From assembly GCA_963930775.1 (NCBI GenBank), contig OZ005692.1, positions 10,893,029-10,957,028 on the forward strand: a DNA stretch of 64,000 nucleotides. The letters are read 5' to 3'. Position numbers and translations under genes: made by a program. Each line of letters opens with the position of its first letter. The stretch's first letter is position 1. Shown here one piece after another: positions 1,839 through 56,455 of this stretch. This stretch comes from Cliona cf. orientalis (lineage: Eukaryota; Porifera; Demospongiae; Clionaida; Clionaidae). A model generated the notes under the pieces. The model was not told the origin of the DNA and searched no databases. It saw only the letters and a list, made by a program, of their open reading frames with translations.

Positions 1839-2182
1839 TCACAGAGTTTCTCCTCCTTAATTTGCCAAATGCCTCGCTGAGCATTTGGTTACAGAGAGCA
1901 GCATAAGGGTTCATAGCTACAACTTATTTCCCAGTAAATCTGCTGCCTAGTCAGGGTTTCATCCAGAAAAATAGTGGGCGTGGCAATTTCACGTACTGTG
2001 TCCCCCCCCCCCCCTTAACCATTTTTGGATGTCACTGAGGTATTACGTGATTTCATCTAGTGCTCTTAAATAATTATAATACTGATCACTTGCACTGCAG
2101 TGCAAAAGAATAACATGCTCCCTCCCCCACTATCTCTCTCTCTTTCTCTTTCCTTCCCTTTTTTTCTTCTTACTCTCTTCCT

Positions 2183-2215
<33 letters not shown>

Positions 2216-2433
2216 GAGGGAAGCTTCCCCCCACCCCCCACTGGATGAAACCCTGCTAGTTTAGCTACTACCTTGAAGTCCTCCAGAGTTCCTTTATCGC
2301 AAAACTGGAGTCTTCAGACCAGCCCCCGCTGGGTGTATGCCAGCTCAGCAACTTTATCATGTCCTCCAGATAGCTGGATGGCCGTGTTGAGATCAGACAC
2401 AGCTAAGTCTCTTTGATTCTCAAGATGATAGAC
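1839..2433 (-). pseudogene. TTC36: TTC36 last-exon relic 1 (after copy A), split by an insertion
   Basis: On the minus strand this encodes the C-terminal TPR part of TTC36. Relics in the array share IQLSGGHGKVAELAYTQRGL, then RLQGCDEGALEDFKAAAKLG, then NPYAALCNQMLSEAF, which match the end of vertebrate TTC36 (known family motif NPYAALCNRML). A splice acceptor CTAG precedes the exon on the right. This copy is split by the element at 1952-2255 and has a 2-nt deletion near the C-terminus. No upstream TTC36 exon is present anywhere in the window, so this is an orphan exon carried by the duplicated unit. Confidence 0.8.
1952..2255. mobile_element. 304-bp MITE with 15-bp perfect TIRs
   Basis: The ends are CAGGGTTTCATCCAG and its exact complement CTGGATGAAACCCTG. 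The flanks carry the 5-bp duplication CTAGT (1947-1951 and 2256-2260); removing the insert restores the TTC36 exon. The interior has a C run near 2000 and a run of 30 G at 2185-2214. No coding capacity. Its ends resemble those of the element at 58944-59449. Confidence 0.85.
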
Positions 2434-2610
2434 CTAGAGTGGAGTGAAAATAGTGAAGATAATAGGCAGGCATCATTATCGCGAGATGTAGCTTCTCAAA
2501 ATTAATGTTATACAAATTTAATTGAAAGGACCTGGGGAACAGCTATTATGTGTGCGTGGCATCTGAAGCTAGCTGCGCACACTAATATACGTGGTACCAT
2601 GTTGTGGTGC

Positions 2611-3251
2611 AGCAGGTGGGTGGGGCTCATCTATCCACGCCCACGCAGTCTACAGTCATGTGATTTTTTTTGGGACATCTGATATAGCAGCTCTGATCTG
2701 CTCGTCGCTATACCGGTAATTCAGCGTTGAAACATTTGAACATAGATTATATATCACCAGCTGTATCAGGATCTGACTTCACTACAAGTGAGTATCAATG
2801 ATAATATTATTCAATGGGCTTTTCCATTTTATAAGCAAACACCCCCTATTGAGGAGCAAATTGTGAAATGACCCCTCAGGAACTAATTAACTCGTTTTGC
2901 CCCCCAATAATAATAAATTTGGGCAGTTAAACCCCCTAGGATCAATTAAATTTATCTGAAATACCCTCTGGAAATTAATAAGTGGTTGCTTCACCCCTCC
3001 AGAATCTGCTGTTTGGTAGAAAATACCCCACAAGAGTAATTAAAATCGCCAGAAGAGGCCCATAAGAATCAATTAAATTACCAAAAGGACCCTCAAGAAA
3101 CTCACAAAAAAAGCCCCCTCAGGATGTAATTATCACTCCTCAATGGGGGGTGTATGCCTATTAAATGGAAGAGCCCAATATACATTTCGGAAATGTGGGT
3201 GTGTTGATGGTTGACGAGCTCTTTGTGCTATGTTTTTAGATTCAATTTTCG
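2611..3251 (+). promoter_or_regulatory. Promoter block, leader exon and 5'UTR intron of copy B
   Basis: The block has GGTGGGTGGGGCTC, then CACGCCCACGCAGTC, then TCATGTGA at 2656-2663. The leader exon ends CACTACAA at 2787 with donor GTGAGT at 2788. The acceptor TTTTTAG ends at 3239, 12 bp before the ATG at 3252. The 452-bp intron is longer than in sister copies because of the element at 2815-3177. Transcription start is not determined. Confidence 0.7.
2815..3177. mobile_element. 363-bp MITE in the leader intron of copy B
   Basis: The terminal inverted repeats are about 40 bp and imperfect: the left starts TGGGCTTTTCCATTT, the right reads in complement TGGGCTCTTCCATTT. The interior is a degenerate series of motifs like CCCCTCAGGAA followed by AATTAA every 40-50 bp. 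Sister introns of copies D and K lack it. A 3-bp AAT duplication is possible but not convincing. Confidence 0.65.
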
Positions 3252-5525
3252 ATGGCTGAGTCTCAATCTGTTGCCAAGCAAGCCCTGAAGAAGCTGGAGG
3301 ACCAGCTGACCTGTGCCATCTGCCTCGATGCCTTCAAAGACCCCAAACTGCTTCAGTGCTTCCATGTCTACTGCAAGGACTGCCTCCAGCGACTGGTGGT
3401 CACAGACAGACAGGGACAACTCTCCCTACGCTGCCCCACCTGCCGACAATCCACCCTCCTTCCCCCGGCTACTAGCGTGTCTGACCTCCAGCCGGCGTTC
3501 CATATCCACCACCTCTTTGAGATCCAAGACGCATTGGAGAAGGTGAAAGAACCTCAAAAGGTAATGTGTGGAAAGTGCAAGAAGGCTAAGCAAGCGGCCA
3601 CGAGCTACTGCCGCGACTGTGGGGAATTTATCTGCGCCATGTGTACGACCATCCATAGCAACTGGGACGACTTTGCCGGGCACGAGGTGGTAGCTCTAGA
3701 GCAGCTAGAGAGCAAAATGAAAGAGCTCGACGCTTTGAAGAAGGTGACCTTATACTGCTGCCTGCACAAAGGCAAGGAGCTTGAGATTTATTGCGAGACG
3801 TGTGAGGAGCTCATCTGCCACAACTGCACCGTCACGAAGCACTGCCGTCCAGAGCACAAGTATAGCCTCGTGGACGACACTTTTGAGCAGCACAAAACTG
3901 AGATTATCACGTCCCTAGAGCCAATCGAAAAGCAGGTTGGCATCGTAAACAAGGCGCTTGAAGAGCTAGGTCAACAATCGGCAGAGATAGATGACCAGTG
4001 CGGAACGACAAAAACCGAAATTTCGCGATTGTTTCGACAAATTTACGACATTCTTGAAGCGCGAAAGGCTGACCTAGACAGTCAAGTCGATCAGCTTGCA
4101 AATCAAAAGCTGAAAAATCTAGCCGCACAGAAGGATGAAATGGAGACAGTTCAGACACAGCTGGCCAGCTGTCTGTCATTTGTGAGGGAGAGCCTGAGGA
4201 CAGGAAGCCAGGGAGAGGTCATGAAAATGAAGAAGACTGTCATGAAACAGATCAAGGAGATGACAGACAACTTCAAGCCAGACATGCTGCCTCCCTGTGA
4301 GTGTGCTAATATCAATTTTGTAGCTTCACCCGAGCTCATCCAAATCTGCCAGAAATTGGGAAAGATATATCGAAGTCATGTGTATCCTGAGAAATGCTAT
4401 GCCACAGGCAAAGGTCTGGAGGTAGCTGATCTTGATGAGAGAGCCACTGCAGTCCTGCATGTTGTTGATCTGAAAGGGAAAGCTTGCAGCACACCAGTGG
4501 AGACTCTGACCTGTGAACTAGTGTCAGAGAGTGCTGATGAGAAGATAGACTGCTCTGTGAAGAAGATTGAAGCCAGCGGCCAGTATGAAATCAGCTACCA
4601 GGCCACCAGTCGAGGGAGGCACCAGCTGCACATCAAAGTGGAGGGGGAGCACATCAAAGGAAGCCCATTCACTGTCACTGTGAAGCTATCAGTCCAGAAG
4701 CTAGGCACTCCAATCAAGACCATCAGTGGAATGAAGAATCCATGGGGTGTGGCAGTCAACAAGAGAGGGGAGATCATAGTAGCCGAGAGAGGTGGACACT
4801 GTATCTCTATCTTCAGCCCAACTGGAGAGAAGCTTCGATCATTTGGCTCACAAGGTTCTGGACCAGGACAGTTCAATGAACCTAGTGGTGTGACAGTGGA
4901 TGATGTTGGTAACATACTGGTGACTGATACTAACAACTATCGTATTCAGAAGTTTACATCCGATGATAAGCATATCACAAGTGTGGGGAGCCGTGGCAGC
5001 AATCATTTGCAATTTAATTTCCCAATAAGTACATCCATTTCTCCCATTACTAAGAAAATTATAATATTGGAGTTCAGTAATAATCGTCTTCAGATTCTTA
5101 ATCCAGATCTAAAATTCCACAGTATTATTGGCAGCAAGGGCAGTGGCAATGGACAGTTCAATGGGCCTCATGATATTGCATTTGACAGTGCAAAGAATTT
5201 GTATGTGACTGATGCTGAGAACCATCGTATTCAAGTCTTTAATCCTGAGGGACAGTTCTTGCAACAGTTTGGAAAGAGAGGCAAGGGTGATGGAGAACTA
5301 TACTTTCCTACGGGTATAAGCATTGACAGTGACGACACAGTGTATGTGGTCGAGAATGGCAACTGTCGTGTTTCAGTATTCACACGTGAGGGAGAATTTC
5401 TGACATCATTTGGCAGCCGGGGAGATGGACCAGGACAATTCAACAGTCCTTGTAGAATAGCAGTGGATAAGAATGGAATAATCTATGTTGCTGATAGTTA
5501 TAATAATCGTATTCAAATCTTTTGA
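3252..5525 (+). CDS. TRIM-NHL protein, copy B, intact (757 aa)
   Basis: A TRIM-NHL protein of class C-VII architecture (as TRIM2, TRIM3, TRIM71), probably a cytoplasmic E3 ubiquitin ligase. RING C3HC4 ligands are C21, C24, C36, H38, C41, C44, C61, C64. B-box 1 spans about 106-144 and is of type 1 (MCGKCKKAKQAATSYCRDCG). B-box 2 spans about 169-202, the coiled coil about 205-340, a filamin repeat about 375-480, and six NHL repeats about 486-757. The start at MAESQSVAKQAL is shared by all copies and follows a conserved acceptor by 12 bp. Single coding exon, no frame break. Ligase activity and targets are inferred from the family. Confidence 0.93.
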   Translation: MAESQSVAKQALKKLEDQLTCAICLDAFKDPKLLQCFHVYCKDCLQRLVVTDRQGQLSLRCPTCRQSTLLPPATSVSDLQPAFHIHHLFEIQDALEKVKEPQKVMCGKCKKAKQAATSYCRDCGEFICAMCTTIHSNWDDFAGHEVVALEQLESKMKELDALKKVTLYCCLHKGKELEIYCETCEELICHNCTVTKHCRPEHKYSLVDDTFEQHKTEIITSLEPIEKQVGIVNKALEELGQQSAEIDDQCGTTKTEISRLFRQIYDILEARKADLDSQVDQLANQKLKNLAAQKDEMETVQTQLASCLSFVRESLRTGSQGEVMKMKKTVMKQIKEMTDNFKPDMLPPCECANINFVASPELIQICQKLGKIYRSHVYPEKCYATGKGLEVADLDERATAVLHVVDLKGKACSTPVETLTCELVSESADEKIDCSVKKIEASGQYEISYQATSRGRHQLHIKVEGEHIKGSPFTVTVKLSVQKLGTPIKTISGMKNPWGVAVNKRGEIIVAERGGHCISIFSPTGEKLRSFGSQGSGPGQFNEPSGVTVDDVGNILVTDTNNYRIQKFTSDDKHITSVGSRGSNHLQFNFPISTSISPITKKIIILEFSNNRLQILNPDLKFHSIIGSKGSGNGQFNGPHDIAFDSAKNLYVTDAENHRIQVFNPEGQFLQQFGKRGKGDGELYFPTGISIDSDDTVYVVENGNCRVSVFTREGEFLTSFGSRGDGPGQFNSPCRIAVDKNGIIYVADSYNNRIQIF

Positions 5526-5727
5526 AAGTCCCGTATACATAGTTACAATTAAGTTAGTTAACAATCGTGTGCATTGGCCGCAACCCCTCTATAATTATTA
5601 CAATTACCTGATTTTTTTTTCTGTGCAAATAATTTTCCTTGTATACAAAATTTTGAACTATTATTCTTATGGTCTTCTTATAATCATTAGTGAGAACAAA
5701 AATCTTTAAAAATGTCATACATTATGA

Positions 5728-6164
5728 TCACACAGTTTCTCCTCTCCTTAATTTTCTACTGAGCCGCATTTGGTTACAAAGAGCAGCATAAGGGTCCATA
5801 GCTACAACTTGTTTCCCGGCAAATCTACTGCCTAGTTTAGCTGCTGCCTTGAAGTCCTCCAGAGCATAGGCGTAGGAACCATGGGGGCTCCGGGGGCTGG
5901 TGCCCCCCTATGTTTTCTGATAGTTACATAGCTAGACTCAATATTATACACACTGATCATACTGCCCTTGCCTATAGATCTGTAGAGCCCCCCTTTACCA
6001 AATCATCTTCCTACGCCCCTGCAGAGCTCCTTCATCACAACCCTGGAGCCTTTGAATCAGCCCCCGCTGGGTGTATACCTGCTCAGCAACTTTACCATGT
6101 CCTCCAGACAGCTGAATGGCCGTGTCAAGATCAGACACAGCTAAGTCTACTTGATTCTGGAGAC
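5728..6164 (-). pseudogene. TTC36: TTC36 last-exon relic 2 (after copy B), split by an insertion
   Basis: The minus strand reads LDTAIQLSGGHGKVAE then QRLQGCDEGAL and, beyond the element at 5865-6021, LEDFKAAAKLGSRFAGKQ and PYAALCNQM. The C-terminal MLSEAF segment is rearranged to MRLSRK. Acceptor CTAG follows on the right at 6165. The exon is convergent with the TRIM gene, whose stop lies about 200 bp away. Confidence 0.78.
5865..6021. mobile_element. 157-bp hAT-like MITE in TTC36 relic 2
   Basis: Ends CATAGGCGTAGGAA and the complement of CAGGGGCGTAGGAA. The 5-bp duplication CAGAG lies at 5860-5864 and 6022-6026. Removal restores CTCCAGAGCTCC as in the other relics. No coding capacity. Confidence 0.8.
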
Positions 6165-6350
6165 CTAGAGAAGAGTGAAAAATAGTGAACATAAAAATTA
6201 ATATAAATCAATCTTGAAACCATAAAAATAGAACCTCGTCCCCAGCTTCTCAATGCCATATACATGTAAACACACAGAGAAGTTAGAAGGACCTGGAGAA
6301 ACACTGAAGCGTGTTTTGTGTGCATCTAGAGTTGCATAGACTAGTGCAGC

Positions 6351-6598
6351 AGGTGGGTGGGGCTCGTCTATTCACGCGGTCATGTGATTATTCGCGACCT
6401 CTAGAGAAAGCGATTCAGCATTTGCTAGCTGACTGCAAATTCTTCTTTGAAACTGTTTAAAGCTGTGCCCTGGGATCTAGCTTCACTATAAGTGAGTACT
6501 AGTGATAATTTTCGTATTTATATATATTATAATTATCCTGCGGCTTATTTAGACTTGCTCTTCTGTCCTGTAAAATTAATATTTAGATTCAATTTCCG
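6351..6598 (+). promoter_or_regulatory. Promoter block, leader exon and 5'UTR intron of copy C
   Basis: GGTGGGTGGGGCTCGTCTAT, then TCATGTGA at 6380-6387, then TTATTCGCGACCTC. The CACGCCCACG box is shortened here. Leader exon ends CACTATAA with donor at 6492; the acceptor ATTTAG ends at 6586. Intron 95 bp. Confidence 0.68.
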
Positions 6599-8873
6599 AT
6601 GGCTGAGTCTCAATCTGTTGCCAAGCAAGCTCTGAAGAAGCTGGAGGACCAGCTGACCTGTGCCATCTGCCTCGATGCCTTCAAAGACCCCAAACTGCTC
6701 CAATGCTTCCATGTCTACTGCAAGGACTGCCTCCAGCGACTGGTGGTCACAGACAGACAGGGACAACTCTCCCTACGCTGCCCCACCTGCCGACAATCCA
6801 CCCTCCTTCCCCCGGCTACTAGCGTGTCTGACCTCCAGCCAGCGTTCCATATCCACCACCTCTTTGAGATCCAAGACGCACTAGAAAAGGTGAAAGAGCC
6901 CCAAAAGGTACTCTGTACAAAATGTAACAAGAATCGTTCCGCTACTAGCTACTGCCGTGATTGTGGAAAATACATATGTGCCCTATGCACAACCATACAT
7001 TATGATTGGGACGATTTTTCCGAACACGAGGTGGTAGCTCTAGAGCAGCTAGAGAGCAAAATGAAAGAGCTCGACGCTTTGAAGAAGGTGACCTTTTACT
7101 GCTCCCTGCACAAAGGCAAGGAGCTGGAGATTTATTGCGAGACGTGTGAGGAGCTTATCTGCCACAACTGCACTGTCACGAAGCACTGTCGACCAGAACA
7201 CAAGTATAGCCTCTTGAATGACACTTTTGAGCAGCACAAAACTGAAATCATTACGTCCCTAGAGCCAATCGAAAAGCAGATCGGCATTGTAAACAAGGCA
7301 CTTAAAGAGTTAGTCCAACAATCAGTGGAGGTAGACGACCAGTGTGGAAGGACAAAAACTGAAATTGCACAATTGTTTCGACAAATAAACGGCGTTCTTG
7401 AAGCACGGAAGGCTGACCTAGACAGTCAAGTCGATCAGCTTGCAAATCAAAAGCTGAAGAATCTAGCCGCACAGAAAGATGAAGTGGAGACAGTTCAGAC
7501 CCAGCTGACCAGCTGTCTGTCATTTGTGAGGGAGAGCCTGAGGACAGGAAGCCAGGGAGAGGTGATGAAAATGAAGAAGACCATCATGAAACAGATCAAG
7601 GAGATGACAGACAACTTCAAACCAGACATGCTGCCTCCCTGTGAGCGTGCCAATGTCAGATTTATAGCTTCAACCGAGCTTGTCCAAATCTGCCAGAAAT
7701 TCGGAGTGGTATTTCTGGATGATGCGTGTCCAGAGAAATGCTATGCCTCAGGCAAAGGCCTGGAGGTAGCTGAGCCTGGTGAGAGAGCCACTGCAGTCCT
7801 GCATGTTGTCAATCAGAAAGAGAAGGCTTGCAACACACCAGTGGAGAATCTGACCTGTGAACTGGTGTCAGAGAGCACTGGTGAGAAGATAGACTGCTCC
7901 GTGAAGAAGAGTGAAGCCAGTGGCCAGTATGAAATCAGCTACCAAGCCACCAGTCGAGGGAGGCACCAGCTGCACATCAAAGTGGAGGGGGAGCACATCA
8001 AAGGAAGCCCATTCCCTGTCACTGTGAAGCTACCAGTCCAGAAGCTGGGCACTCCAATCAAGATCATCAGTGGAGTGAAGCAGCCATGGGGTGTGGCAGT
8101 CAACCAGAGAGGGGAGATCATAGTAGCTGAGTACAGTGGACACTGCATCTCCATCTTCAGCCCAACTGGAGGGAAACTTCGATCATTTGGCTCACAAGGC
8201 TCTGGACCAGGACAGTTCATTAACCCTCATGATGTAACAGTGGATGATGATGGTAACATACTGGTGGCTGATACTAACAACAATCGTATTCAGAAGTTTA
8301 CATCCGATGATAAGCATATCACAAGTGTGGGGGGCCAAGGCAGCAATCATTTGCAATTTAATTTCCCAATAAGTGCATCCATTTCTCCCATCACTAAGAA
8401 AATTATAATATTAGAGTTCACTAATAATCGTCTTCAGATTCTTAATCCAGATCTGACATTCCATAGTACTATATATTGGCAGCAGGGGCAGTGGCAATGG
8501 ACATTTCAATGGGCCTCATGGTGCAGCATTTGACAGTGCAGGAAATATGTATGTGACTGATGCTGAGAACCATCGTATTCAAGTCTTTAATCCTGAGGGA
8601 CAGTTCTTGCGACAGTTTGGAAAATTAGGCAAGAGTGATGGAGAACTAAACTTTCCTGCAGGCATCAGCATTGACAGTGATGACACAGTGTATGTGGTTG
8701 AGGGTGGCAACCATCGTGTTTCAGCATTCACACATGAGGGAAAATTTCTGACATCTTTTGGCAGTAAGGGAGATGGACCAGGACAATTTAGTGGTCCTTA
8801 TAGAATAACAGTGGATAAGAATGGAATAATCTATGTTGCTGATAGTTATAATAATCGTATTCAAATCTTTTGA
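6599..8873 (+). pseudogene. TRIM-NHL copy C, one frameshift in NHL repeat 3/4
   Basis: The first 644-codon frame (6599-8533) carries a complete RING, a type 2 B-box 1 (LCTKCNKNRSATSYCRDCGK), B-box 2, coiled coil, filamin, and NHL repeats 1 to 3. At about 8464-8480 four extra bases (TATA-like) relative to the other copies shift the frame, and the rest of the propeller is read in another frame to the TGA at 8871-8873. Apart from this one lesion it is fully alignable. It may be a recent pseudogene, a truncated but made protein, or a sequencing or assembly error. Downstream spacer is of the same type as copy B. Confidence 0.88.
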
Positions 8874-9046
8874 AAGTTCCGTATACATAGTTACAATTAA
8901 GTTAGTTAACAATCGTGTGCATTGGCCGCACCCCCTATTTTTTTCTGTGCAAATAATTTTCCTTGTATATAAAATTTTGGAACTATTATTTTTATGGTAT
9001 TGTCATAATCATTAGTGAGAACAAAAATCTTTTAAAATTTCATACA

Positions 9047-9293
9047 TCATGTTTCTCCTCTCTTTAGTTTGCCAAATGCCTCACTGAGCATTTGGTTACA
9101 GAGAGCAGCATAAGGGTTCATAGCTACAACTTGTTTCCCAGCAAATCTGCTGCCTAGTTTAGCCGCTGCCTTGAAGTCCTCCAGAGCTCCTTCATCACAA
9201 CCCTGGAGCCTTTGGACCATTCCCCGCTGGGTGTATGCCAGCTCAGCAACTTTACCATGTCCTCCAGACAGCTGGATGGCCACGTTGACATCA
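9047..9293 (-). pseudogene. TTC36: TTC36 last-exon relic 3 (after copy C)
   Basis: The best preserved reading frame among the relics: MAIQLSGGHGKVAELAYTQR, then QRLQGCDEGALEDFKAAAKL, then NPYAALCNQMLSEAFGKLKR and a stop at 9047-9049. It is cut on the right at about 9293, inside the first codons of the exon, so the splice acceptor is missing and it cannot be joined to an upstream exon. Confidence 0.8.
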
Positions 9294-9368
9294 CAGCTAC
9301 TACAATGAAGGATTTCAACAATCGCTAGTTAATAAATTACATACATGCTATGCATGTCATACATAATT

Positions 9369-9757
9369 ACAAGTATAAAAACAATTGAATAAAATTGAAG
9401 GATGAAGTAGGGATGGCAGTGCCAAAAAGTACACAAACAAGATTCGTAGGGATAACGTATCACATCCACTATACATCCCTGCGCTTGCTTTTCTCATACA
9501 CATCTGATTCAGCATGTAAATTTAAAGTGTCACTACTATTGATATTGATCCCTGGGTATACAGTATTGATTTTCCATTCCTGCATGCATGTGCCCCATAT
9601 ATAATATTATGCCAGTGTGTGCATGGCTACTCAAAAAGCAAGCGTAGGGATGCATAGTGGATGTGATACGTTATCCCTACGAATCTTGTTTGTGTACTTT
9701 TTGGCACTGCCATCCCTACTTCATCCTTCAATTTTATTCAATTGTTTTTATACTTGT
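9369..9757. repeat. Long inverted repeat, arms about 124 bp
   Basis: The left arm (9369-9492) and right arm (9633-9757) are nearly perfect complements, for example GGATGAAGTAGGGATGGCAG on the left and its complement on the right. The spacer is about 140 bp. It would fold into a long hairpin if transcribed. No flanking duplication was identified; probably a foldback element. Confidence 0.8.
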
Positions 9758-10508
9758 TACTGTTCTTTTTTTTTAGTGCCCTCAGGGCCTGGTAGTTATT
9801 AATTTTCATCAATGCCACCTAGCTGACTAATCTCGTGGGGACAGAGGCTGGGCATATACCATGGTGACCGGTTTGCCTATTCATTGTTTAATATTAAAAA
9901 TTTAATCAGTGCATGGAACTAGCTACTTCAAAATTTTTTTTCTGGACCTATATAGCTACATCCAACTGTGCTCCAGCAATAAATACAATATTATTATAGG
10001 GAAGCAAGTACACCATGTTTGTGTGATCTTAGCCTTTGAGTCAGGTACTACTGCGGCTATATGTATGGTACCCCAACACACCGTGAGTTCAAACTTGAAT
10101 ACTCCTGCTGTAAGTGCAAATCCCAGGCAATCTTTGATAGGCTTGCTAGGGCGTCTTCTTTTGCATCACACACTATTGAACGTGCATCAGTGGGGTTCTC
10201 GAGACTGCTCAGGTAACTAGTTGACCTGCGAATGAAGCCACGCCCCTCGTTATCTCGATTCTGAAGCTGGCTGACTCGACCCGGCGGCAAACTTGAAAGA
10301 AGGCTGTTTAGAACCATAGATCATATAGACTACGTAACGTAGTCTATAATATCTATGTTAGAACCAAGTAGCGATGAAACCATTCCGTTTCAGAAGCATA
10401 TTTTATAGGTCAGTAAGCTTACTGTTGGTAAGTAGCCACTATGATCGACAGCTCACTGAGCTGATCGGCTGAGCGCTCGTGCTCGATCGGCGAGCAGGTC
10501 GATCCTGG
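9758..10508. other. Spacer with one unassigned minus-strand ORF
   Basis: Mostly non-coding. A minus-strand ORF of 86 aa (10057-10317) starts MVLNSLLSSLPPGRV and contains DAKEDALASLSKIAWDL. It looks protein-like but matches no family I recognise and could be a stray exon. A short perfect palindrome, TAGACTACGTAACGTAGTCT plus A, lies near 10327-10347. Confidence 0.35.
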
Positions 10509-11058
10509 GCGCCGGTGTCATGCCGTATAGCGTCCCCCGTAGAATCGCGTCCGGGGGACGTAAAATAATACGTCCTGGGGACGCAATCAATTAACGATAT
10601 CCGGACAGTTGGAGAATGCCTAAGCTTCTAAAACTCTTTTGATATTGCATAGTATTTATTATTATTATTATTATTATTTTTTTTTTTTGGCCACATTTAC
10701 AAGTTTTCCATTGTTCGTTATGCCATTAACGATATCCGTCCCGCGCGCTGGAATAACGTCCGCCCGCCGCGGTGAGCGCCCCAGTGAAAAAGGCGCCGAA
10801 GGGGTAATTAGGCACTGATGGAGAGGAAGATGGTGGAGAGAAGACAGGCACTGATGGGATGCCCAGCCCCTACCTCCCTCTTGTGATGGGAAGCAGGATG
10901 ATGAGAATGATGGAGAGAAGAGCACGGTATGTAATAAATAATATGACCGAGAAATACCTAGTACATGTCAGATACTTCCATGCACAGTACCACTTGACCG
11001 ATGAGAAATCACCTATTGCATTGTTTATAGGACTTGTGCGGTTTCCAACCACGTGCAC

Positions 11059-11215
11059 AAGAAAATGCAGCCAAATGCCAGAATCACTGTTACAGTATGG
11101 AGACATGATTCAATGCGACAAGTGTGAGCATTGGTATCATATATACGCTGTGTTTGATTTTTCTCTGTTCCTTGAGACGTACACTGAACTATGGCACTGC
11201 CATTCTTGTTGTTGA
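11059..11215 (+). pseudogene. PHD-finger-like C-terminal coding remnant in the transposon
   Basis: The frame reads MIQCDKCEHWYHI and ends LWHCHSCC-stop. The pattern C-x2-C-x4-H and the final C-x2-C resemble a PHD zinc finger, a domain found at the C-terminus of some transposon proteins. The cysteine normally two residues after the histidine (H-x2-C) is absent. The upstream part of the frame (from 10859) has no recognised domain. A remnant, not a functional gene. Confidence 0.45.
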
Positions 11216-11273
11216 TATGTGTATAGCTAATATCTTTGATTCATAGATCATGATAAGTAATTTTTGTTCATTA

Positions 11274-12706: not shown

Positions 12707-14327
12707 ATGGCAGAAGGATACATCGCTAAAAAAGGTATTAATCAAACTCTTAATCCCAGTACTGCAGTACTGATTTTTCTTGTTTGAACAAGCAGATCGT
12801 CTAACCATCAGAAACTTAAAGAAGGTTCGTGGAGCCTGCTGGGAGGCTAGAACCTGTTGGATGGATATTGGAATTGAACTGGGCTTGAACAAGACCGACC
12901 TTGATGCTATTAAAACGAATTTGGATAACGATCCGACAAAATGCTTCACCGAGATGCTCACACTGTGGCTCAAGCAGGTCAACCCGTTGCCTACCCAGAG
13001 AGCTCTGGTTGAAGTGCTGAGAAATCCTATTGTGAATCTGGGTCAATTGGCAGAGAGTGTAGAAAACGAAGATCTCTTAGTTGAGTTGAGCAGCTCTGAA
13101 GTCGTTACCCCCAGAGCTGTAGTTGCTCCATATGAAGCAGATAACCAGTTGTTTCCTCACATCAATGACATTCAAGATGAGCAGTCACGAAGAGAGCTAG
13201 AGCAAAGGCTAAAAGCAGAAAGTGAAGAGATAAGGCTCCAATTTTGCATTCTTATGAATAAGTATTTTGATTCCCTGGAAGATCGACAATACTCTATTCC
13301 AAGGTTGATCAGGCACCTAAAAACTGGCTTGGAAACGGAGTGCTTATTACCAGAGCCAAAGGTTATTGATGATATTATGAAATTGATGGAAAGCAAATCA
13401 TCTTTCTTCAATTATGAGCTTATTGAATATATGATACAGTTAAGTGGTACCAATGATGATCAAAAGAATCTGGGAAATTATCAGACAAAGTTTAGTATCT
13501 ATGCCAAAAGACGGATCTACGAATGTTCAGCAATCATTTCCAACTCAAATCCAAGCGAAACTGAATTACATGTAAAGCTTGATTCAAAGTATGATAAGTG
13601 TACTGTAGCTGAGCTAACTGACTTTCAAAGTCGACTCTGTAGGATCTTAAATAGAAAGGTCTATGCTATCCGTCTGCTATCTGTTCAGAGGGGGTGCTTT
13701 AAATTGGTTTATGCAATCTCGAACTACGTTATGAATGCTACCTTCCCTTTGACCAAAAAACAAGAATCTCAACTTGCAGCTCTTGGAATCCTCCAGCTCA
13801 TTTGCAATGATTATCGGTTGAAAAGCACAACAAGCCAAGTACAGGTACGTGTATACGTACATGAGGACTATGGTCACTCCTGCTAATAGCCATGTATGTA
13901 CATCACATATCCAGTGGTGTGTATTCGAGTGTGTCAGCACCACTGCTAGCCTCGTCCCCAGGCCCTTTGAGGGGGAAGAGAAAGGGCCTGGCACACACCA
14001 TTTGTGCATGCGTCAACCTTTCCATAACGATGTCCACAAAATTCCCGTACACCTAGCTATCCCTACCACGTGCTGACAAGTGAAATGGTCCATATACCTA
14101 AAGAATACGGGATGATCTCCTGACCTTTATACTAGCACTCGTACTAAATGCATGCCCACGTTGTTCAGAGGCCTATATATGAGTCAATCGATATAATCGT
14201 ATAGCAATGCGAGTAACAGTCAGTTACCTCAGCCTGTCATTTCTAGGTGCGTCAAGTTGAACGTGAGGAATTAAGGTCAAAGTATGCTAAGAAGTATCCA
14301 TATGTAATCGGATTATTCCAAATTTGA
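12707..14327 (+). CDS. Death-domain protein, three exons (386 aa)
   Basis: Exons 12707-12734, 12793-13844 and 14247-14327. Intron 1 is 58 bp (donor GTATTA, acceptor ACAAG); intron 2 has donor CAG/GTACGT and acceptor TTTCTAG. Phases agree and the product starts MAEGYIAKKADRLTIRN. Residues about 10-105 form a Death-fold domain: conserved tryptophans, GIELGLNKTDLDAIK, then CFTEMLTLWLKQ, then ALVEVLRNP and LGQLAESVE. The remainder (about 120-386) is a helical region without a named family; it resembles, from memory, a module that follows Death domains in many sponge and cnidarian proteins. Probably an adaptor in apoptotic or immune signalling, inferred from the fold. The last exon lies between facing TAGCCTCGTCCCCAGG repeats. 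Confidence 0.8.
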
Positions 14328-19564: not shown

Positions 19565-19843
19565 ATATCCTCTCCTTAGTTTACCGAATGCCTCACTGAG
19601 CATTTGGTTATAATTACAGAGAGCATGCAGCATAAGGGTTCATAGCTACAACTTGTTTCCCGGCAAATCCGCCGCCTAGTTTAGCCGCTGCCTTAAAGTC
19701 CTCTAGAGCTCCTTCGTCACAACCCTGGAGCCTTCAGATCAGACCCCGCTGGGTGTATGCCAGCTCAGTAACTTTATCTTGTCCTCCAGACAGCTGAATG
19801 GCCACACCGAGATCAGATAGGGCTAAGTCCACTTGATTCTGGT
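19565..19843 (-). pseudogene. TTC36: TTC36 last-exon relic 4 (after copy D)
   Basis: Reads QNQVDLALSDLGVAIQLSGG then AYTQRGLI and a TGA: the usual CGA codon is TGA here. There are also extra bases within the NPYAALCNQML region, and the usual stop region and acceptor are changed. Pseudogene. Confidence 0.78.
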
Positions 19844-22649: not shown

Positions 22650-22931
22650 TCACAGACGTTCTCCTCTCCTTAGTTTGTCGAATGCCTCACTGAGCATTTG
22701 GTTACAGAGAGCAGCATAAGGGTTCATAGCTACAACTTGTTTCCCGGCAAATCTGCCGCCTAGTTTAGCTGCTGCCTTGAAGTCCTCCAGAGCTCCTTCA
22801 TTACAACCCTGGAGCCTTCGGATCAGCCCCCCGCTGGGTGTATGCCAGCTCAGCAACTTTACCATGTCCTCCAGACAGCTGGATGGCTGTATTGAGATCA
22901 GACACAGCTAAGTCTACTTGATTCTGGAGAC
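22650..22931 (-). pseudogene. TTC36: TTC36 last-exon relic 5 (after copy E)
   Basis: A long, well preserved exon with acceptor CTAG at the right and a stop at 22650-22652. One extra C in the run near 22828 shifts the frame between AYTQRG and LIRRLQGC. C-terminus NPYAALCNQMLSEAFDKLRR is intact. Confidence 0.8.
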
Positions 22932-25840: not shown

Positions 25841-26118
25841 TCACACAGTTTCTCCTCTCCTTAATTTGTCAAATACTTCACTGAGCATTTGGTTACAGAG
25901 AGCAGCATAAGAGTTCATGGCCACAACTTGTTTCCCAGCAAATCTACAGGCTAGTTTAGCTGCTGCCTTGAAGTCCTCCAGAGCTCCTTCATCACAACCC
26001 TGGAGCCTTCGGATCAGCCCCCGTTGGGTGTATGCCAGCTCAGTAACTTACCATATCCTCCAGACAACTGGATGGCCACATCGAGATCAGACACAGCTAA
26101 GTCTACTTGATTCTGGAG
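25841..26118 (-). pseudogene. TTC36: TTC36 last-exon relic 6 (after copy F)
   Basis: Reads QNQVDLAVSDLDVAIQLSGG then a one-base deletion near 26046 shifts the frame. The bases GACCTAG that form the acceptor in other relics are missing, so splicing would also fail. Confidence 0.78.
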
Positions 26119-28838: not shown

Positions 28839-28910
28839 AAGTAAAGCTCTTATAATACATTGTAGTTCACATAAATAATAATTTATTAAGTCACATGCAT
28901 GCAGCTACTC

Positions 28911-29010
28911 CTAAGCTACAACTTGTTTCCCAGCAAATCTGCTGTGTGCCTAGTTTAGCTGCTGCCTTAAAATTCCTCCAGAGCTCCTTCATAATTAACC
29001 CTGGAGCCTG
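28911..29010 (-). pseudogene. TTC36: TTC36 last-exon relic 7 (after copy G), short fragment
   Basis: Only the central part remains (region of EGALEDFKAAAKLG to FAGKQVV), with internal insertions (TGCTGTGTGCC). Both the C-terminal MNPYAALCNQML part and the first half of the exon are gone. Confidence 0.7.
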
Positions 29011-31668: not shown

Positions 31669-31857
31669 AAATCTCCTATTATTATTATAAATTAATTAAC
31701 ACACTAGCAACAACCATATAATATTATATACAGTTTTCCTCTCTAATATTAAAGTAATCACTGTACAGCCACTTTTAAATTAATACTTTGTACAAAAGTT
31801 ATTTTAATATTATTTTTGCATTCATGGTTATAATCACCATTAGTTATACACCATGAT

Positions 31858-32146
31858 TACATTATTTCTCCTCTCTTTTGTTTGTCGAATGCCTCACTGA
31901 ACATTAATTTTGGTTACAGAGCGCAGCATAAGGGTTCATAGCTACAACTTGTTTCCCGGCAAATCTGCCGCCAAGTTTAGCCGCTGCCTTGAAGTCCTCC
32001 AGAGCTCCTTCGTCACAACCCTGGAGCCTTTGGATCAGCCCCCACTGGGTGTATGCCAGCTCAGCAACTTTTCCCTTTGTTCAAGACAACTGGATGGCCA
32101 CATCGAGATCAGACAGAGCTAAGTGTACTTCAGTGATTCTGGAGAC
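31858..32146 (-). pseudogene. TTC36: TTC36 last-exon relic 8 (after copy H)
   Basis: The EGALEDFKAAAKLGGRFAGK stretch is recognisable. There are extra bases in the MLSEAF region (AACATTAATTTTGG), a rewritten GKVAE region, and an altered acceptor. Pseudogene. Confidence 0.75.
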
Positions 32147-32310
32147 AATAGTGGAGCAAAAGTAGTGAACATACATCACTCTATCTAGGCAGGCTGCTCC
32201 TTTTTTTACAGAATCATTGACATTATTGAAACCTAGCCTCACTCCCAGCTTCTCAATGTTACACACAGGAGCTGAGGAATAATTGAAACTTCCTTATTAA
32301 TTTGTGCATT

Positions 32311-32561
32311 GTGGGTGGAGCTCATCTATTCGCGCCCACGCAGGACGTCATGTGACTATTCGTGACCTGCTATAATTATATAGCTGACTACTCGTTTGAA
32401 GCTGTACCCTGGGATCTGACTTCACTACAAGTGAGTACTAGTGATGATTAGTGTTATAATTGTGCTGCGGCTTATTTTTAGACCATCAAATTCTCGTAAA
32501 TAAAGTATGGATTAGTTGATTTGCTCTTCTGTATTTATAGCTTACTTAATATCAATTTCCG
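32311..32561 (+). promoter_or_regulatory. Promoter block, leader exon and 5'UTR intron of copy I
   Basis: GTGGGTGGAGCTCATCTATT, CGCGCCCACGCAGG, TCATGTGA at 32348-32355. Leader exon ends TTCACTACAA at 32430, donor at 32431. The usual acceptor TTTAG/ATTC is mutated; the nearest AG is TTTATAG ending at 32540, so the 5'UTR is slightly longer. Intron 110 bp. Confidence 0.66.
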
Positions 32562-34829
32562 ATGGCTGAGTCTCAATCTGTTGCCAAGCAAGCCCTGAAG
32601 AAGCTGCAGGACCAGCTGACCTGTGCCATCTGCCTCGATGCCTTCAAAGATCCCAAACTGCTCCAATGCTTCCATGTCTACTGCAAGGACTGCCTCCAGC
32701 GACTGGTGGTCACAGACAGACAGGGACAATTCTCCCTACGCTGCCCCACTTGCCGACAATCCACCCTCCTTCCCCCGGCTACTAGCGTGTCTGACCTCCA
32801 GTCGGCGTTCCATATCCACCACCTCTTTGAGATCCAAGACGCACTGGAGAAGGTGAAAGAGCCCCAAAAGGTACTCTGTACAAAATGTAACAAGAATCGT
32901 TCCGCTACTAGCTACTGCCGCGATTGTGGAAAATACATATGTGCTTCATGCACTGCAGTGCATAGCGATTGGGATGATTTTTCCGAACATGAGGTGGTAG
33001 CTCTAGAGCAGCTAGAGAGCAAAATGAAAAAACTAGACTCTTTAAAGAAGGTGATCTTTTACTGTTCCCTGCACAAAGGCAAGGAGCTTGAGCTCTACTG
33101 CGAAACGTGTGAGGAGCTTATCTGCCACAATTGCATTGTCAAAAAGCACAAAGACCACCAATATGACTTGATTGATGATACATTCGAAAAGCACAAAGCT
33201 GAAATAATAGCTTCCCTAGGCCCAGTAGAAAATCAACTTGGAATTGCTAACAAGGCCCTTGAACAGATCGAACAGCGATCAGGTGGTGTAAACAAGAAGC
33301 GAGTGGCAACTAAAACAGAAATAAAGAAGATTGTTCAGCAGCTTCACGAAATGCTTGAGGTACGCAAGGCTGAGCTTATGGGAAAGGTTGACGAATACGC
33401 AGATCAGAAGATTAAGAATCTAGCCGCACAGAAAGATGAAGTGGAGACAGTTCAGACCCAGCTGGCCAGCTGTCTATCATTTGTGAGAGAGAGCCTGAGG
33501 ACAGAAAGCCAGGGAGAGGTGATGAAAATGAAGAAGACTGTCATGAAACAGATCAAGGAGATGACAGACAACTTCAAGCCAGATATGCTGCCTCCCTGCA
33601 AGACAGCAAATGTCAGATTTAAAGTATCTCCAGAGCAACTCAAAGCCTGCCAGCAGTTTGGAAGAGTATTTCTTCAGCAAATATCTCCTGAGAAATGCTA
33701 TGCCACAGGCAAAGGCCTGGAGGTAGCTGAGCCTGGTGAGAGAGCCACTGCAGTCCTGCATGTTGTCAATCAGAAAGGGAAGGCTTGCAGCACACCAGTG
33801 GAGACTCTGACCTGTGAACTGGTGTCAGAGAGCACTGGTGAGAAGATAGATTGCTCTACGAAGAAGATTGAAGCCAGTGGCCAGTATGAAATCAGCTACC
33901 AAGCTACCAGTGGGAGGAGGCACCAGCTGCACATCAAAGTAGAGGGGGAGCACATCCAAGAAAGTCCATTCACTGTCACTGTGAAGCTACCAGTCCAGAA
34001 GCTGGGCACTCCAATCAAGTCCATCGGTGGAGTGAAGCAGCCATGGGGTGTGGCAGTCAATCAGAGAGGGGAGATCATAGTAGCTGAGAGTAGTGGACAC
34101 TGTATCTCCATCTTAAGCCCAACTGGAGAGAAGCTTCGATCATTTGGCTCACAAGGCTCTGGACCGGGACAGTTCCATCACCCTAAGGGTATAGCAATAG
34201 ATGAGGATGGTAACATACTTGTGGCTGATTCTGGCAACCATCGTATTCAGAAGTTTACGTCTGACATTAAGCATATCACAAGTGTGGGGAGCCGTGGCAG
34301 CAATTATTTGCAATTTAGCCTTCCAGCAGGTGTAGCCATTTCTCCCATCACTAAGAAAATTGCAATATCGGATTGGAGTAATGAACGAGTTCAAATTCTT
34401 AATCCAGATCTGACATTCCACAGCAGTGTTGGCAGCAAGGGCAGTGGAAATGGACTGTTCAATGGGCCTCATGATGTAGCATTTGACAGTGCAGATAATA
34501 ATATGTATGTAACTGATGCTAAAAATAATCATATTCAAGTCTTTAATCCTGAGGGACAGTTCTTGCGACAATTTGGAAAAGGAGGCCAGAGTAATGAAGA
34601 ATTGCACTCTCCTGCTGGTATAAGCATTGACAGTAATGACACAGTGTATGTGGTTGATCGCAACAACCATCGTGTTTCAGTATTCACACACGATGGAAAA
34701 TTTCTGACATCATTTGGCAGCCGGGGAGTTGGACCGGGACAGTTTAATAATCCTCGTAGAATAACAGTGGATAGGAATGGAATAATCTATGTCGCTGATA
34801 GTTATAATAATCGTATTCAAATCTTTTGA
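32562..34829 (+). CDS. TRIM-NHL protein, copy I, intact (755 aa), divergent B-box 2/coiled coil
   Basis: The only intact copy with a type 2 B-box 1. RING, filamin and six NHL repeats are complete. From about residue 155 to 286 (33020-33415) the sequence departs sharply from all other copies, for example IVKKHKDHQYDLIDDTFEKH and EIKKIVQQLHEMLEVRKAEL, and then returns abruptly to near identity at NLAAQKDEVETVQTQL. B-box 2 is two residues shorter there but keeps its Cys/His pattern. The coiled coil sets TRIM dimerisation, so this copy may pair differently from its neighbours; that is inference. The frame is clean to the TGA at 34827-34829. Confidence 0.92.
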   Translation: MAESQSVAKQALKKLQDQLTCAICLDAFKDPKLLQCFHVYCKDCLQRLVVTDRQGQFSLRCPTCRQSTLLPPATSVSDLQSAFHIHHLFEIQDALEKVKEPQKVLCTKCNKNRSATSYCRDCGKYICASCTAVHSDWDDFSEHEVVALEQLESKMKKLDSLKKVIFYCSLHKGKELELYCETCEELICHNCIVKKHKDHQYDLIDDTFEKHKAEIIASLGPVENQLGIANKALEQIEQRSGGVNKKRVATKTEIKKIVQQLHEMLEVRKAELMGKVDEYADQKIKNLAAQKDEVETVQTQLASCLSFVRESLRTESQGEVMKMKKTVMKQIKEMTDNFKPDMLPPCKTANVRFKVSPEQLKACQQFGRVFLQQISPEKCYATGKGLEVAEPGERATAVLHVVNQKGKACSTPVETLTCELVSESTGEKIDCSTKKIEASGQYEISYQATSGRRHQLHIKVEGEHIQESPFTVTVKLPVQKLGTPIKSIGGVKQPWGVAVNQRGEIIVAESSGHCISILSPTGEKLRSFGSQGSGPGQFHHPKGIAIDEDGNILVADSGNHRIQKFTSDIKHITSVGSRGSNYLQFSLPAGVAISPITKKIAISDWSNERVQILNPDLTFHSSVGSKGSGNGLFNGPHDVAFDSADNNMYVTDAKNNHIQVFNPEGQFLRQFGKGGQSNEELHSPAGISIDSNDTVYVVDRNNHRVSVFTHDGKFLTSFGSRGVGPGQFNNPRRITVDRNGIIYVADSYNNRIQIF

Positions 34830-34961
34830 AAGTCCTGTAGTAACAAGTTAGTTAACAGTCGTGTGCATTGGCCGCAACCCCTCAGTTACCTAATTTTTTC
34901 TGTATAATACTTTTCCTTGTAAAAGTTTTGTAAAAATGTCATACATGCAATATCATAATGA

Positions 34962-35183
34962 TCACATAGTTTCTCCTTTCCTTACGTAGCTTACTGAATG
35001 CCTCACTGCCGCCTAGTTTAGTTGCTGCCTTGAAGTCCTCCAGAGCTCCTTCATCACAACCCTGGAGCCTTCTGATCAGCCCCCGCTGGGTGTATGCCAG
35101 CTCAGCAACTTTACCATGTCCTCCAGACAGCTGGATGGCCGTGTCAAGATCAGACAGAGCCAAATCTACGTGATTCTGGAGAC
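34962..35183 (-). pseudogene. TTC36: TTC36 last-exon relic 9 (after copy I)
   Basis: Acceptor CTAG and first half intact: LGLQNHVDLALSDLDTAIQL, then KVAELAYTQRGLIRRLQGCD, then FKAATKLGG. An in-frame deletion of 63 bases removes 21 residues including NPYAALCNQML, and the frame ends in a longer, unrelated tail near 34939. Confidence 0.78.
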
Positions 35184-35649
35184 CTAGAGTGGAGTGAAAA
35201 TAGTGAACATACAATCTTGAAACCATAGAAACATAGCCTCGTCCCCAGCTTCTCAATGCTACCAAGCCCTTGATGCTACACGTACTGAGAAGTTGGTTGC
35301 ATACACTCAGCAGATGGGTGGGGCTCGTCTATTCACGCCCACGCGGTCATGTGATTATTCGCGACCTCCAGTGAAAGCCCATCTATTCAGCCTTTGCTAG
35401 CTGACGTCGACCGCAAATTCTTCTTTGAAACTGTTTGAAGCTGTACCCAGGGAGCTGACTTCACTACAAGTGAGTATTAGTCATGATTTTCATATTATTA
35501 TAATTAAGCTTATCCTGCGGCTTATTTAAGGTACCATTAAATTGCGTGGGCGTGAGGTGGGGGATATGACACCTAAACCACATCAAAGTCATTAGTGAGG
35601 TGCATGTTGTGTAACCACGCCCTTTTAATTGCACAGGTCTCAGGGGTGT

Positions 35650-36200
35650 GGCTGCTAGAGCCGGAAGTGTTCATTTAATATCCTCCATGGACCGGAAGCC
35701 GAGCCGGAAGGGAGGGGCCAGGCCACGCCCAAAACAGCCCCACCCTGTTCCCCAAGGACCACCATTCTCAATCAAGTGCCTACTAACCACCGGATGTCCA
35801 CCGGAAGCCCACAATCAATCCCAATTAAAACACACAGCTTCCTCAAGGCCAAAACACACACAAACACTTGGAGGCCGTTCTGCCACACCGCCCACGCAAG
35901 AGCTCACCTCATTTCCTGTGTGGGTGGAGTAACAACACGTCATCGCAACCACATCCGCTTCAAACCATCGTCAGCTTCCGTCCAGCCGTACAGGCCCCTC
36001 GATCGCACCGCCGTACAGTGCCTCATTAACAGACATGGCCTCACCTTTGACCTCCTGCCACGCCCCCAAAGCCTCCTGGACGGGTTCAAAGGTCACCACC
36101 GCATCCGGGACACGCCCACCTATCGCCGCAGCCAAGTCCCCGGCCCCGATGTCCAAGCACTGGCCCGTGAAGCCACGCCCAATCGGAAGCAATAAAACCT
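35650..36200. other. GC-rich internal stretch of the TTAA element
   Basis: Much richer in G+C than its surroundings, with many CACGCCC boxes and repeated CCGGAAG motifs. A minus-strand ORF (35971-36249) includes RVPDAVVTFEPVQEALGAWQ. I cannot assign it to a family; it could be a captured host fragment or chance coding. Confidence 0.4.
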
Positions 36201-36292
36201 GCATTAACACACACGCACACACTCCACACAGCGCCAGGAACACGCCCACATGCTTAATTAGGCCTAATTAGCTTTTTTTTTTTTTTTTTTTT

Positions 36293-37118
36293 TTTCAAGG
36301 CGACCTGAACACTAAGCAGAAAAAAATTGTCCAAAAACCACCATATAATCGAGCTGGGTGCATAGTGGAACCATACAATGCAAGCAGGCAGTCTAAATTT
36401 CAATTTTGTCAAAAAATTGGTAATGGTCGTCACGTTTATGTACGCGCGTGGCCCCGCCCCTCACGTAGCGCGTGGGCAGAAACATTGCAAACGCATGGCT
36501 TCCCTGTACAAACATATGGGGAAACTTCAAAGGGCCGTAACTTTAATTGTAAGGTGTGAATCAAAAATCTGTCCGGTCAAATCTCTAATTTCGACCCATT
36601 CTGCGTGCCCATGTAAAAATTATCTCCCCAAGTACTCCCAAACCCCCCATGAATTAGATTATTTAATTATTTAATTATTTAAATCTTTTCTTTTTTTCTA
36701 CTTAGTGTTTAATTTCAAGGCGACCAGAACACTAAGCAGAAAAAAAAATTGTCCAAAAACCACCACATAGTTGAACTGGATGCATAGTAGAGCCATACAA
36801 TGCAAGCAGGCAGCCTGTACATCAATTTTGATCCAAGTGGGTAATGGTCGTCACGTTGATGTGCGCGCGTGGCCCCGCCCCTCACGTAGCGCGTGGGCGG
36901 AAAACATTGCAAATGTATGGCTTCCTATACAAACATATGGGGTAACTTCAAAGGGCCGTAACTTTAATTCTAAGGCGTGAATCAAAATTCCCCAGGGTCA
37001 AATCTCTAGTTTTGACCCATTCTGCGTGCCCATGTAAAAATTATCCCCCCAAGTGCTCCCAAACCCCCCATGAATTAGATTATTTATTTAAATTTGCTTT
37101 TTTTTTCTACTTAGTGTA
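36293..37118. repeat. Tandem pair of 420-bp units with repeat Z copies 2 and 3
   Basis: Both units start TTTCAAGGCGACC at 36293 and 36713 and carry ACACTAAGCAGAAAAAA on the left and TTTTCTACTTAGTG on the right, which are complementary. Repeat Z copies lie at 36405-36616 and 36827-37036. A T run of about 22 precedes the first unit. No coding content. Confidence 0.8.
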
Positions 37119-37455
37119 TAAGTCGTTGCGGTTAATAGTTAAGCAAGAATGCTTTGATCTTGCTTTGATGTGGGCAATTACCGGCCTTTTCTTCAGGGGC
37201 CACTTCCGGTCGCTAATTACACGCGCATAATCATCCCTGGCCGATTCTGGACACGCCCACCTTCGACCAAAAGCACTCGTATGGCCTCTTCGGCCACGCC
37301 CCTTCACGATTCGCTAATTGAATTAGCCATTCCTGACGCTCACGCCCACGCAATTAAAATGGTACCTTAAATTTTCGAAAATAAAAGGGGGTGTGTCAAT
37401 TATTAGTTGACTTGCTCTTCTGTCATGGAAAATTAATGTTTAGATTCAATTTCCG

Positions 37456-39685
37456 ATGGCTGAGTCTCAATCTATTGCCAAGCAAGCCCTGAAGAAGCTG
37501 GAGGACCAGCTGACCTGTGCCATCTGCCTCGATGCCTTCAAAGACCCCAAACTGCTCCAATGCTTCCATGTCTACTGCAAGGACTGCCTCCAGCGACTGG
37601 TGATCACAGACAGACAGGGACAACTCTCCCTACGCTGCCCCACCTACCGACAATCCACCCTACTTCCCCCGGCTACTAGCGTGTCTGACCTCCAGCCAGC
37701 GTTCCATATCCACCACCTCTTTGAGATCCAAGACGCACTGGAGAAGGTGAAAGAGCCTCAAAAGGTAATGTGTGGAAAGTGCAAGAAGGCTAAGCAAGCG
37801 GCCACAAGCTACTGCCGTGACTGTGGAGAATTTATCTGTGCCATGTGCACGACCATCCATAGCAACTGGGACGACTTTGCCGGACACGAGGTGGTAGCTC
37901 TAGAGCAGCTAGAGAGCAAAATGAAAGAGCTCGACGCTTTGAAGAAGGTGACCTTTTACTGCTCCCTGCACAAAGGCAAGGAGCTCGAGATTTATTGTGA
38001 GACGTGTGAGGAGCTCATCTGCCACAACTGCACTGTCACGAAGCACTGCCGTCCAGAGCACAAGTATAGCCTCGTGGATGACACTTTTGAGCAGCACAAA
38101 GCCGAGATTGCTACGTCCCTGGAGCCAATCGAAAAGCAGATTGGTATCGTAAACAAGGCGCTTGAAGAACTAGGCCAACAATCGACAAAGGTAGACGACC
38201 AGCGCGGAACGACAAAAATTGAAATTGCGCAATTGTTTCGACAAATTTACGATGTTCTTGAAGCGCGGAAGGCTGACCTAGACAGTCAAGTCGATCAGCT
38301 TGCAAATCAAAAGCTGAAGAATCTAGCTGCACAGAAAGATGAAGTGGAGACAGTTCAGACCCAGCTGGCCAGCTGTCTGTCATTTGTGAGGGAGAGCCTG
38401 AGGACAGGAAGCCAGGGAGAGGTGATGAAAATGAAGAAGACCGTCATGAAACAGATCAAGGAGATGACAGACAACTTCAAGCCAGACATGCTGCCTCCCT
38501 GCGAGCATGCCAATGTGAGATTTAACATATCTCCCGAGCTACTCAAAGCCTGCCGGCAGTTTGGAAGAGTATTCCTCCAGGATATCTCTCCAGAGAAATG
38601 CTATGCCACAGGCAAAGGCCTAGAGGTAGCTGAGCCTGGTGAGAAAGCCACTGCAGTCCTGCATGCTGTTGATCGGAAAGAAAAGGCTTACAGCACACCA
38701 GTGGAGACTCTGACCTATGAACTAGTGTCAGAGAGCACTGGTGAGAAGATAAACTGCTCTGTGAAGAAGACTGAAGCCCGCAGCCAGTATAAAATCAGCT
38801 ACCAAGCCACCAGTCGAGGGAGGCACCAGCTGCACATCAAAGTGGAGGGGGAGCACATCAAAGGAAGCCCATTCACTGTCCTTGTGAAGCTACCAGTCAA
38901 GAAGCTTGGCACTCCAATCAAGACCATCATTGGGCTGAAGAAGCCATGGGGTGTGGCAGTCCACCAGAAGGGAGAGATCATGGTAACAGAGAGGAGTGGG
39001 GGGTGTATCTCCATCTTTGGCCCCACTGGAGAGAAACTTCGATCGTTTGGCTCACGAGGCTCTGGACCAGGACAGTTCAATGAACCTGAGAGTGTAGCAG
39101 TGGATGATGATGGCAATATATTGATGGCTGATTCTAGGAACCATCGTATTCAGAAGTTTACATCCGACAATAAGTATATCACAAGTGTAGGGAGCCATGG
39201 CAGCAATCCTTTGCAATTTCTCTTCCCAGGAAGTGTATCCATTTCTCCCATCACTAAGAAAATTGCAATATCAGATTGGAATAATCATCGTGTTCAGATT
39301 CTTAATCCAGATCTGACATTCCATAGTAGTATTGGCAGTGAGAGCAGTGGCAATGGACAGTTCAATGGGCCTCATGATACAGCATTTGATAGTGCAGGAA
39401 ATTTATATGTGACAGTTCTTGCGACAATTTGGAAAATTAGGCAATGGTGATGGAGAACTGGACTTTCCCACGGGTATAAGCATTGACAGTGACGACACAG
39501 TGTATGTGGCCGAGGCTAGCAACCATCGTGTTTCAGTATTCACACGTGAGGGAAAGTTTCTGACATCATTTGTCAGTAAGGGAGATGGACCAGGGCAATT
39601 TAATAATCCTCATAGAATAACATTGGATAAGAATGGAATGATCTATGTTGCTGATAGTGGTAATAATCGTGTTCAAATCTTTTAA
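37456..39685 (+). pseudogene. TRIM-NHL copy J, RING ligand lost and 44-bp deletion
   Basis: The last zinc ligand of the RING is changed from Cys to Tyr (residue 64, CPTYRQ), so the RING should not fold normally. The frame is open for 664 codons through type 1 B-box 1, B-box 2, coiled coil, filamin and NHL 1 to mid-4. At about 39414 a deletion of 44 bases relative to the other copies (junction at a GAC microhomology) shifts the frame; NHL 5 and 6 continue in another frame to 39685. An AATAAA follows. Without the deletion it would be a RING-dead paralog. Confidence 0.88.
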
Positions 39686-39914
39686 ATTTAAAAATAAAGC
39701 CCTTATAATACATTGTAGTTCATATAAATAATTTATTAAGTCACATGCATGCAGTTCCTCCTCTCCTTTTTTTATCTATAATTTTATTATTCAAAATTAA
39801 TGTGTTTAATACATGTACTCATGTTGTGAAGTATTAATAATTATTGTTCAAATAAAATAACAACAAATATTTTGCAATCAAAATCTTCATACATTATAAA
39901 AAAATTAATTATAA

Positions 39915-40105
39915 TCACAGAGTTTCTCCTCTCCTTAATTTGCCAAATGCCTCACTGAGCATTTGGTTACAGAGAGCTCCTTCGTCACAACCCTGGAGCC
40001 TTTGGATCAGCCCCCGCTGGGCGTATGCCAGCTCAGCAACTTTAACAAGTCCTCCAGACAGCTGAATGGCCACGTCGAGATCAAAGTCTACTTGATTCTG
40101 GAGAC
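39915..40105 (-). pseudogene. TTC36: TTC36 last-exon relic 10 (after copy J)
   Basis: The C-terminal MLSEAFGKLRRGE part and the first half of the exon are present, but about 95 bases in between, from RLQGC to PYAALCN, are missing; the ends of the deletion share GAGAGC / AGAGCT. Pseudogene. Confidence 0.75.

Positions 40106-56415: not shown

Positions 56416-56455
<40 letters not shown>

Follow-up and report, generated by a model that had tools for sequence, protein, structure and literature searches.

Ten copies of a single exon, all on the minus strand and all placed between repeated TRIM-NHL genes, are very probably unprocessed, dead passengers of a tandem duplication with one break inside the last intron of a TTC36 gene that lay convergent to TRIM. 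In the window (the whole stretch of 64,000 nucleotides that was analysed), tblastn and nucleotide alignment of the exon recovered exactly ten copies at 1839-40105, the number given in the sequence-only reading of this DNA (Table 1). TTC36 is tetratricopeptide repeat protein 36, an HPD-binding protein (PMC6753076). The relics appear to encode the C-terminal part of this protein, and the whole protein is encoded by none of the copies.

Table 1. Positions of the exon relics, the TRIM genes and the presumed founding junction in the window
Feature	Position	Strand	State
Relic 1	1839-2425	-	309-nt insertion splits exon; in-frame stops at codons 37 and 64; 2-nt deletion near end; AG acceptor present
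Relic 2	5728-6164	-	Frame broken by 162-nt inserted element that brings stops; acceptor present
Relic 3	9051-9303	-	Open from about codon 9 to stop; 5' end with first codons and acceptor gone
Relic 4	19568-19842	-	In-frame stop at codon 37; insertions +4 and +6; without acceptor
Relic 5	22650-22931	-	One +1 frameshift; acceptor present
Relic 6	25841-26118	-	One -1 frameshift; AG of acceptor deleted
Relic 7	28914-29009	-	90-nt fragment with three insertions
Relic 8	31865-32146	-	Insertions +4 and +5; stop at codon 20; acceptor mutated
Relic 9	34962-35183	-	In-frame 63-nt deletion and +4 frameshift; acceptor present
Relic 10	39915-40105	-	Deletions of 9 nt and 81 nt, frame stays open; without acceptor
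Intact TRIM gene	3252-5525	+	RING, B-boxes, coiled coil, filamin and NHL repeats; duplicated host gene
Further TRIM copies	starts at 6599, 16542, 20163, 23353, 26569, 29399, 32562 and 37456		
TRIM copy K	starts at 40614		Broken off at 41549; last of the array
TRIM copy L	starts at 62293		Runs off the window
Spacer of unit 2	6165-6598		Presumed founding junction between last intron of TTC36 and 5' flank of TRIM

The majority translation of the relics is LQNQVDLAVSDLDVAIQLSGGHGKVAELAYTQRGLI(Q/R)RLQGCDEGALEDFKAAAKLG(S/G)RFAGKQVVAMNPYAALCNQMLSEAFGKLRRGETL*. Gap-free alignment of this consensus with the C-terminal half of a vertebrate TTC36 covers 88 amino acids, of which 55% are identical and 75% are positives; compared as two sequences, they give E 1e-32. 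The match is a strong lead rather than a database result. The likeness continues to the last residues of this TTC36, through the C-terminal tail NPYAALCN...LRR. Because the agreement spans this whole tail, there is little doubt that the relic exon corresponds to the C-terminal part of TTC36, the identity originally assigned to it. When full-length TTC36 was compared with the whole window, the top single match had an E-value of about 1e-24, which excludes a chance match. For the TTC36 residues N-terminal to the relic exon, this comparison gave no credible match anywhere in the window, in agreement with the earlier statement that no upstream TTC36 exon is present there. Since exons 1 to n-1 are missing, the exon is not expressible as TTC36.

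Pfam models of tetratricopeptide repeats also matched the relic consensus (TPR_1, E 1.7e-4; TPR_2, E 5.6e-4), both below curated cut-offs. A comparison of the relic exon with solved structures returned no TPR protein up to E 10, the best match being NusA (E 0.25). Scans of the exon consensus against IMG/VR and GTDB genomes, and of the TRIM N-terminus against IMG/VR, returned zero relatives. Following ...ttcactccactctag, the first two bases of the exon (GT) belong to a split codon, and the intron is therefore in phase 1. A C ahead of this GT would yield the Arg that precedes LQ in TTC36.

A polypyrimidine tract and an AG acceptor are found upstream of the exon in four copies (relics 1, 2, 5 and 9 only), and the acceptor is lost in the other six. 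The acceptor earlier noted in several relics is thereby narrowed to these four, and its absence from relic 3 holds. The persistence of tract and acceptor in four copies indicates that the relics are genomic copies and were not retroposed, as expected under a passenger origin.

The exon, the spacer 3' of it and the spacer between exon and promoter are all homologous between units. The relic acceptor is followed, in the direction of the TRIM ATG, by a common spacer, which in unit 2 is at 6165-6360, and then by a promoter block that is conserved (AGCAGGTGGGTGGGGCTC...GTCATGTGA). A short exon of the 5' UTR that ends in ACAA/GTGAGT comes next, and an acceptor stands immediately 5' of the ATG. The spacer of unit 2 also holds the TRIM promoter and the TRIM 5' UTR exon with its GTGAGT donor, and is homologous across units. 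A spacer shared in this way is predicted by a single founding junction. Three sequence classes can be distinguished among the exon-promoter spacers (relics 2, 5, 6 and 9; relics 4, 7 and 8; relics 1 and 10). Phylogenies of relic, spacer and TRIM have weak support and are partly discordant, so the order of the duplications is not resolvable from them. Between relic 3 and its promoter (at about 16.3 kb) lie about 7 kb of inserted DNA. Within this insertion, a plus-strand open reading frame of 368 amino acids (12780-13886) encodes a Death domain that scores above the cut-off (PF00531, E 6.7e-5).

As would be expected of dead passengers, almost every copy is truncated or has suffered frameshifts, stops or insertions. 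The frame is undamaged in the retained part of two of the ten copies, relics 3 and 10, and this number matches chance given an average of one to two lesions per copy. Relic 3 had been taken for the only frame-intact copy; this was an error, as relic 10 has in-frame deletions only and no stop, although it is 30 codons shorter and lacks an acceptor. In relic 2, the sole frame-breaking lesion is the 162-nt element (5861-6030), which has inverted ends CAGGGGCGTAGG/CCTACGCC and GCTCTG repeated at its flanks, and which looks like a small non-autonomous DNA transposon. A hairpin element of approximately 390 bp (9369-9757) lies directly upstream of relic 3, and its inverted arms of 124 nt (9369-9492 and 9634-9757) are 98% alike.

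Substitutions in the relics are close to what is expected of neutral sequence. Pooled pairwise divergence is 0.099 at codon positions 1 and 2 and 0.122 at position 3, and the bootstrap 95% interval of the ratio (0.56-1.19) includes 1. Distinct changes comprise 37 synonymous, 55 non-synonymous and 5 stops (crude dN/dS about 0.67). The synonymous fraction, 0.381, slightly exceeds the neutral expectation of 0.298 at p of about 0.05, a value uncorrected for CpG or shared ancestry. The exon has thus evolved neutrally or almost so, and may have been under constraint for a short time in the past. The observed/expected CpG ratio of the relics, 0.31, is below that of the window, 0.52. At codon 37, CGA is replaced by TGA in two copies and by CAA in four, both of which are products of CpG decay. 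Overall divergence among the relics is about 11%. The ranges for the exon (about 7-17%) and for the alignable parts of the flanking spacers (about 5-18%) overlap, and the spacers on both sides contain more indels than the exon.

We propose that an ancestral TRIM-NHL gene stood tail to tail with a TTC36 gene, and that, in the first duplication, a break within the last TTC36 intron was joined to another immediately 5' of the TRIM promoter. The resulting unit would have consisted of the TRIM promoter, the TRIM gene and the last exon of TTC36, each unit receiving only the TTC36 tail, fused to the following TRIM promoter. Later units, each bearing the TTC36 exon, would have been made by unequal exchange, and the exon would then have decayed neutrally. 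Of the gene convergent to TRIM, the units have the 3' end and nothing more, and the homologous acceptor-to-promoter spacer places the same junction in all of them, split in the case of relic 3 by the inserted DNA. As TTC36 runs right to left, its missing exons would be expected where the TRIM promoter now stands.

The sequence-only reading had stated that the founding duplication must have captured the end of a convergent TTC36 gene. Capture of such an end is supported by an exon that is TTC36-like to its end and by a spacer that is shared; "must have" overstates the case, since proof that the two genes were neighbours would require an intact TTC36. We infer the ancestral order of the neighbours, the exact break points and the presence, now or once, of an intact TTC36 to the right of the array. 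An intact TTC36 gene is predicted beyond the right end of the array or elsewhere. Counting against the passenger origin, no intact TTC36 adjoins the last unit, and the 22.5 kb to the right of 41549 are free of TTC36 sequence. The last unit is itself broken at 41549, and the array may run on beyond the window.

The same order within each unit would also result if TRIM had moved into the last intron of TTC36 as a nested gene and the array had grown inside it, with no break between two neighbours. This scenario requires an extra transposition step, and it predicts 5' exons of TTC36 to the right of the last unit, where none is seen in the window; we regard it as very unlikely. Alternatively, whole TTC36 genes could have been duplicated with every TRIM unit and have lost their upstream exons later, unit by unit. 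The synonymous excess in the exon could be read as a hint of residual constraint from such genes. The relics nevertheless share one short spacer between exon and TRIM promoter, and remnants of upstream exons occur in none of the units. This history is highly improbable because it needs parallel losses with one shared boundary.

It had also been suggested that the relics could give antisense 3' transcripts or help to pair the units for unequal exchange. In an RNA-based role, they might splice or terminate antisense RNA from the TRIM promoter and thereby regulate TRIM. The minus-strand exon does lie immediately 5' of the TRIM promoter, in a place that divergent transcription would cross in the sense direction of the exon, and four acceptors survive. 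Against an RNA-based role, six of the ten acceptors are lost, coding decay is near neutral, and a scan of seven upstream spacers detected no minus-strand donor that matches the consensus at 7/9 or better. A plus-strand TRIM donor was present in most of these seven regions. In addition, of nine spacers checked, six have a plus-strand polyA hexamer ahead of the relic, so that TRIM transcripts need not reach the relic; the hexamers are a weak sign that these transcripts may end before it. We therefore rejected a functional exon on the near-neutral decay, the lost acceptors and the missing minus-strand donors. A preferred pairing site was rejected as well, since the longest identical runs between copies have a median of 35 nt for the relic but of 106 nt for the opening 300 nt of TRIM (the RING region), which would make TRIM itself the better pairing substrate. 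Judged from these features of the DNA, neither an antisense nor a pairing role is supported, and a functional explanation of the relics has very little probability. As functional elements they have no importance on present evidence and are apparently harmless passengers.

Capture and spread of the exon by a transposable element could be suspected from the small elements in or beside relics 2 and 3, but these are private to single copies and the relic is always colinear with a TRIM unit, never apart from TRIM in the window; this origin was rejected as extremely improbable. A processed (retroposed) pseudogene was rejected because of the intronic polypyrimidine tract and acceptor and by the colinearity of the copies with the TRIM units.

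A passenger origin by tandem duplication has precedents, and the relic array is another case of the anatomy known from CUP1 and RCCX. In yeast CUP1 arrays, each unit holds YHR054C, which corresponds to the final 1 kb of RSC30, and one end of the array has RSC30 in full (PMC4232551). There, as in the sponge, the unit carries only the 3' end of the flanking gene, with one duplication break inside that gene. In contrast to the CUP1 array, with its complete RSC30 at the end and its nearly identical units, the sponge array has a rearranged end, no intact TTC36 seen in the window, and relics that have diverged by about 11%. In the human RCCX locus, TNXA is a truncated duplicate of TNXB that is convergent to CYP21 on the opposite strand (PMC8362596). 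TNXA and the relics are alike in being dead duplicates of a gene end, on the opposite strand and tail to tail with the duplicated gene, and TNXA has a deletion with frameshift and stop, comparable to the damaged relics. RCCX differs in that it usually has few modules, TNXA spans several kb and many exons, and TNX overlaps the 3' UTR of CYP21, whereas the sponge locus has ten copies of a single 280-nt exon, for which overlap with the TRIM transcript is not required. A search of the literature on TRIM-NHL expansions in sponges or invertebrates found nothing specific.

The relics would fix how the TRIM array began, and they predict an intact TTC36 beside a TRIM-NHL gene. Ten dead exons are also a rare internal neutral yardstick for telling homogenised from diversified parts of a multi-copy TRIM locus. 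Divergence at 4-fold sites among the TRIM copies at 3252-41549 is 2-5% in RING codons 1-100, against about 11% in the relics, and 29%, 28% and 31% in codons 101-150, 201-250 and 551-600, respectively, a comparison that holds only if the relics themselves escaped homogenisation. This unevenness along TRIM suggests segmental gene conversion or mosaic ancestry. We tentatively consider that the TRIM genes may be mosaics, in which exchange has kept the RING nearly identical, whereas some stretches of the B-box, coiled-coil and NHL regions, with 20-30% divergence at 4-fold sites, predate the array and were reshuffled between its units, although we think this somewhat less probable than its opposite. 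If true, such mosaicism is what a diversifying recognition locus would be expected to show.

To the right of the array, two degraded TRIM-NHL fragments (47967-50724, plus strand) have about 74-84% DNA identity to the array copies. Copy L (62283-64000, plus strand) shares 92% identity with the array copies, beginning about 10 nt 5' of its ATG, but its upstream DNA is unrelated. Neither the fragments nor copy L have a relic alongside, and they either predate the capture or have lost the relic. Several coiled-coil-like open frames on the minus strand (46545-58115), one of which has a sub-threshold match to a spectrin repeat (E 0.06), are possibly exons of one gene.
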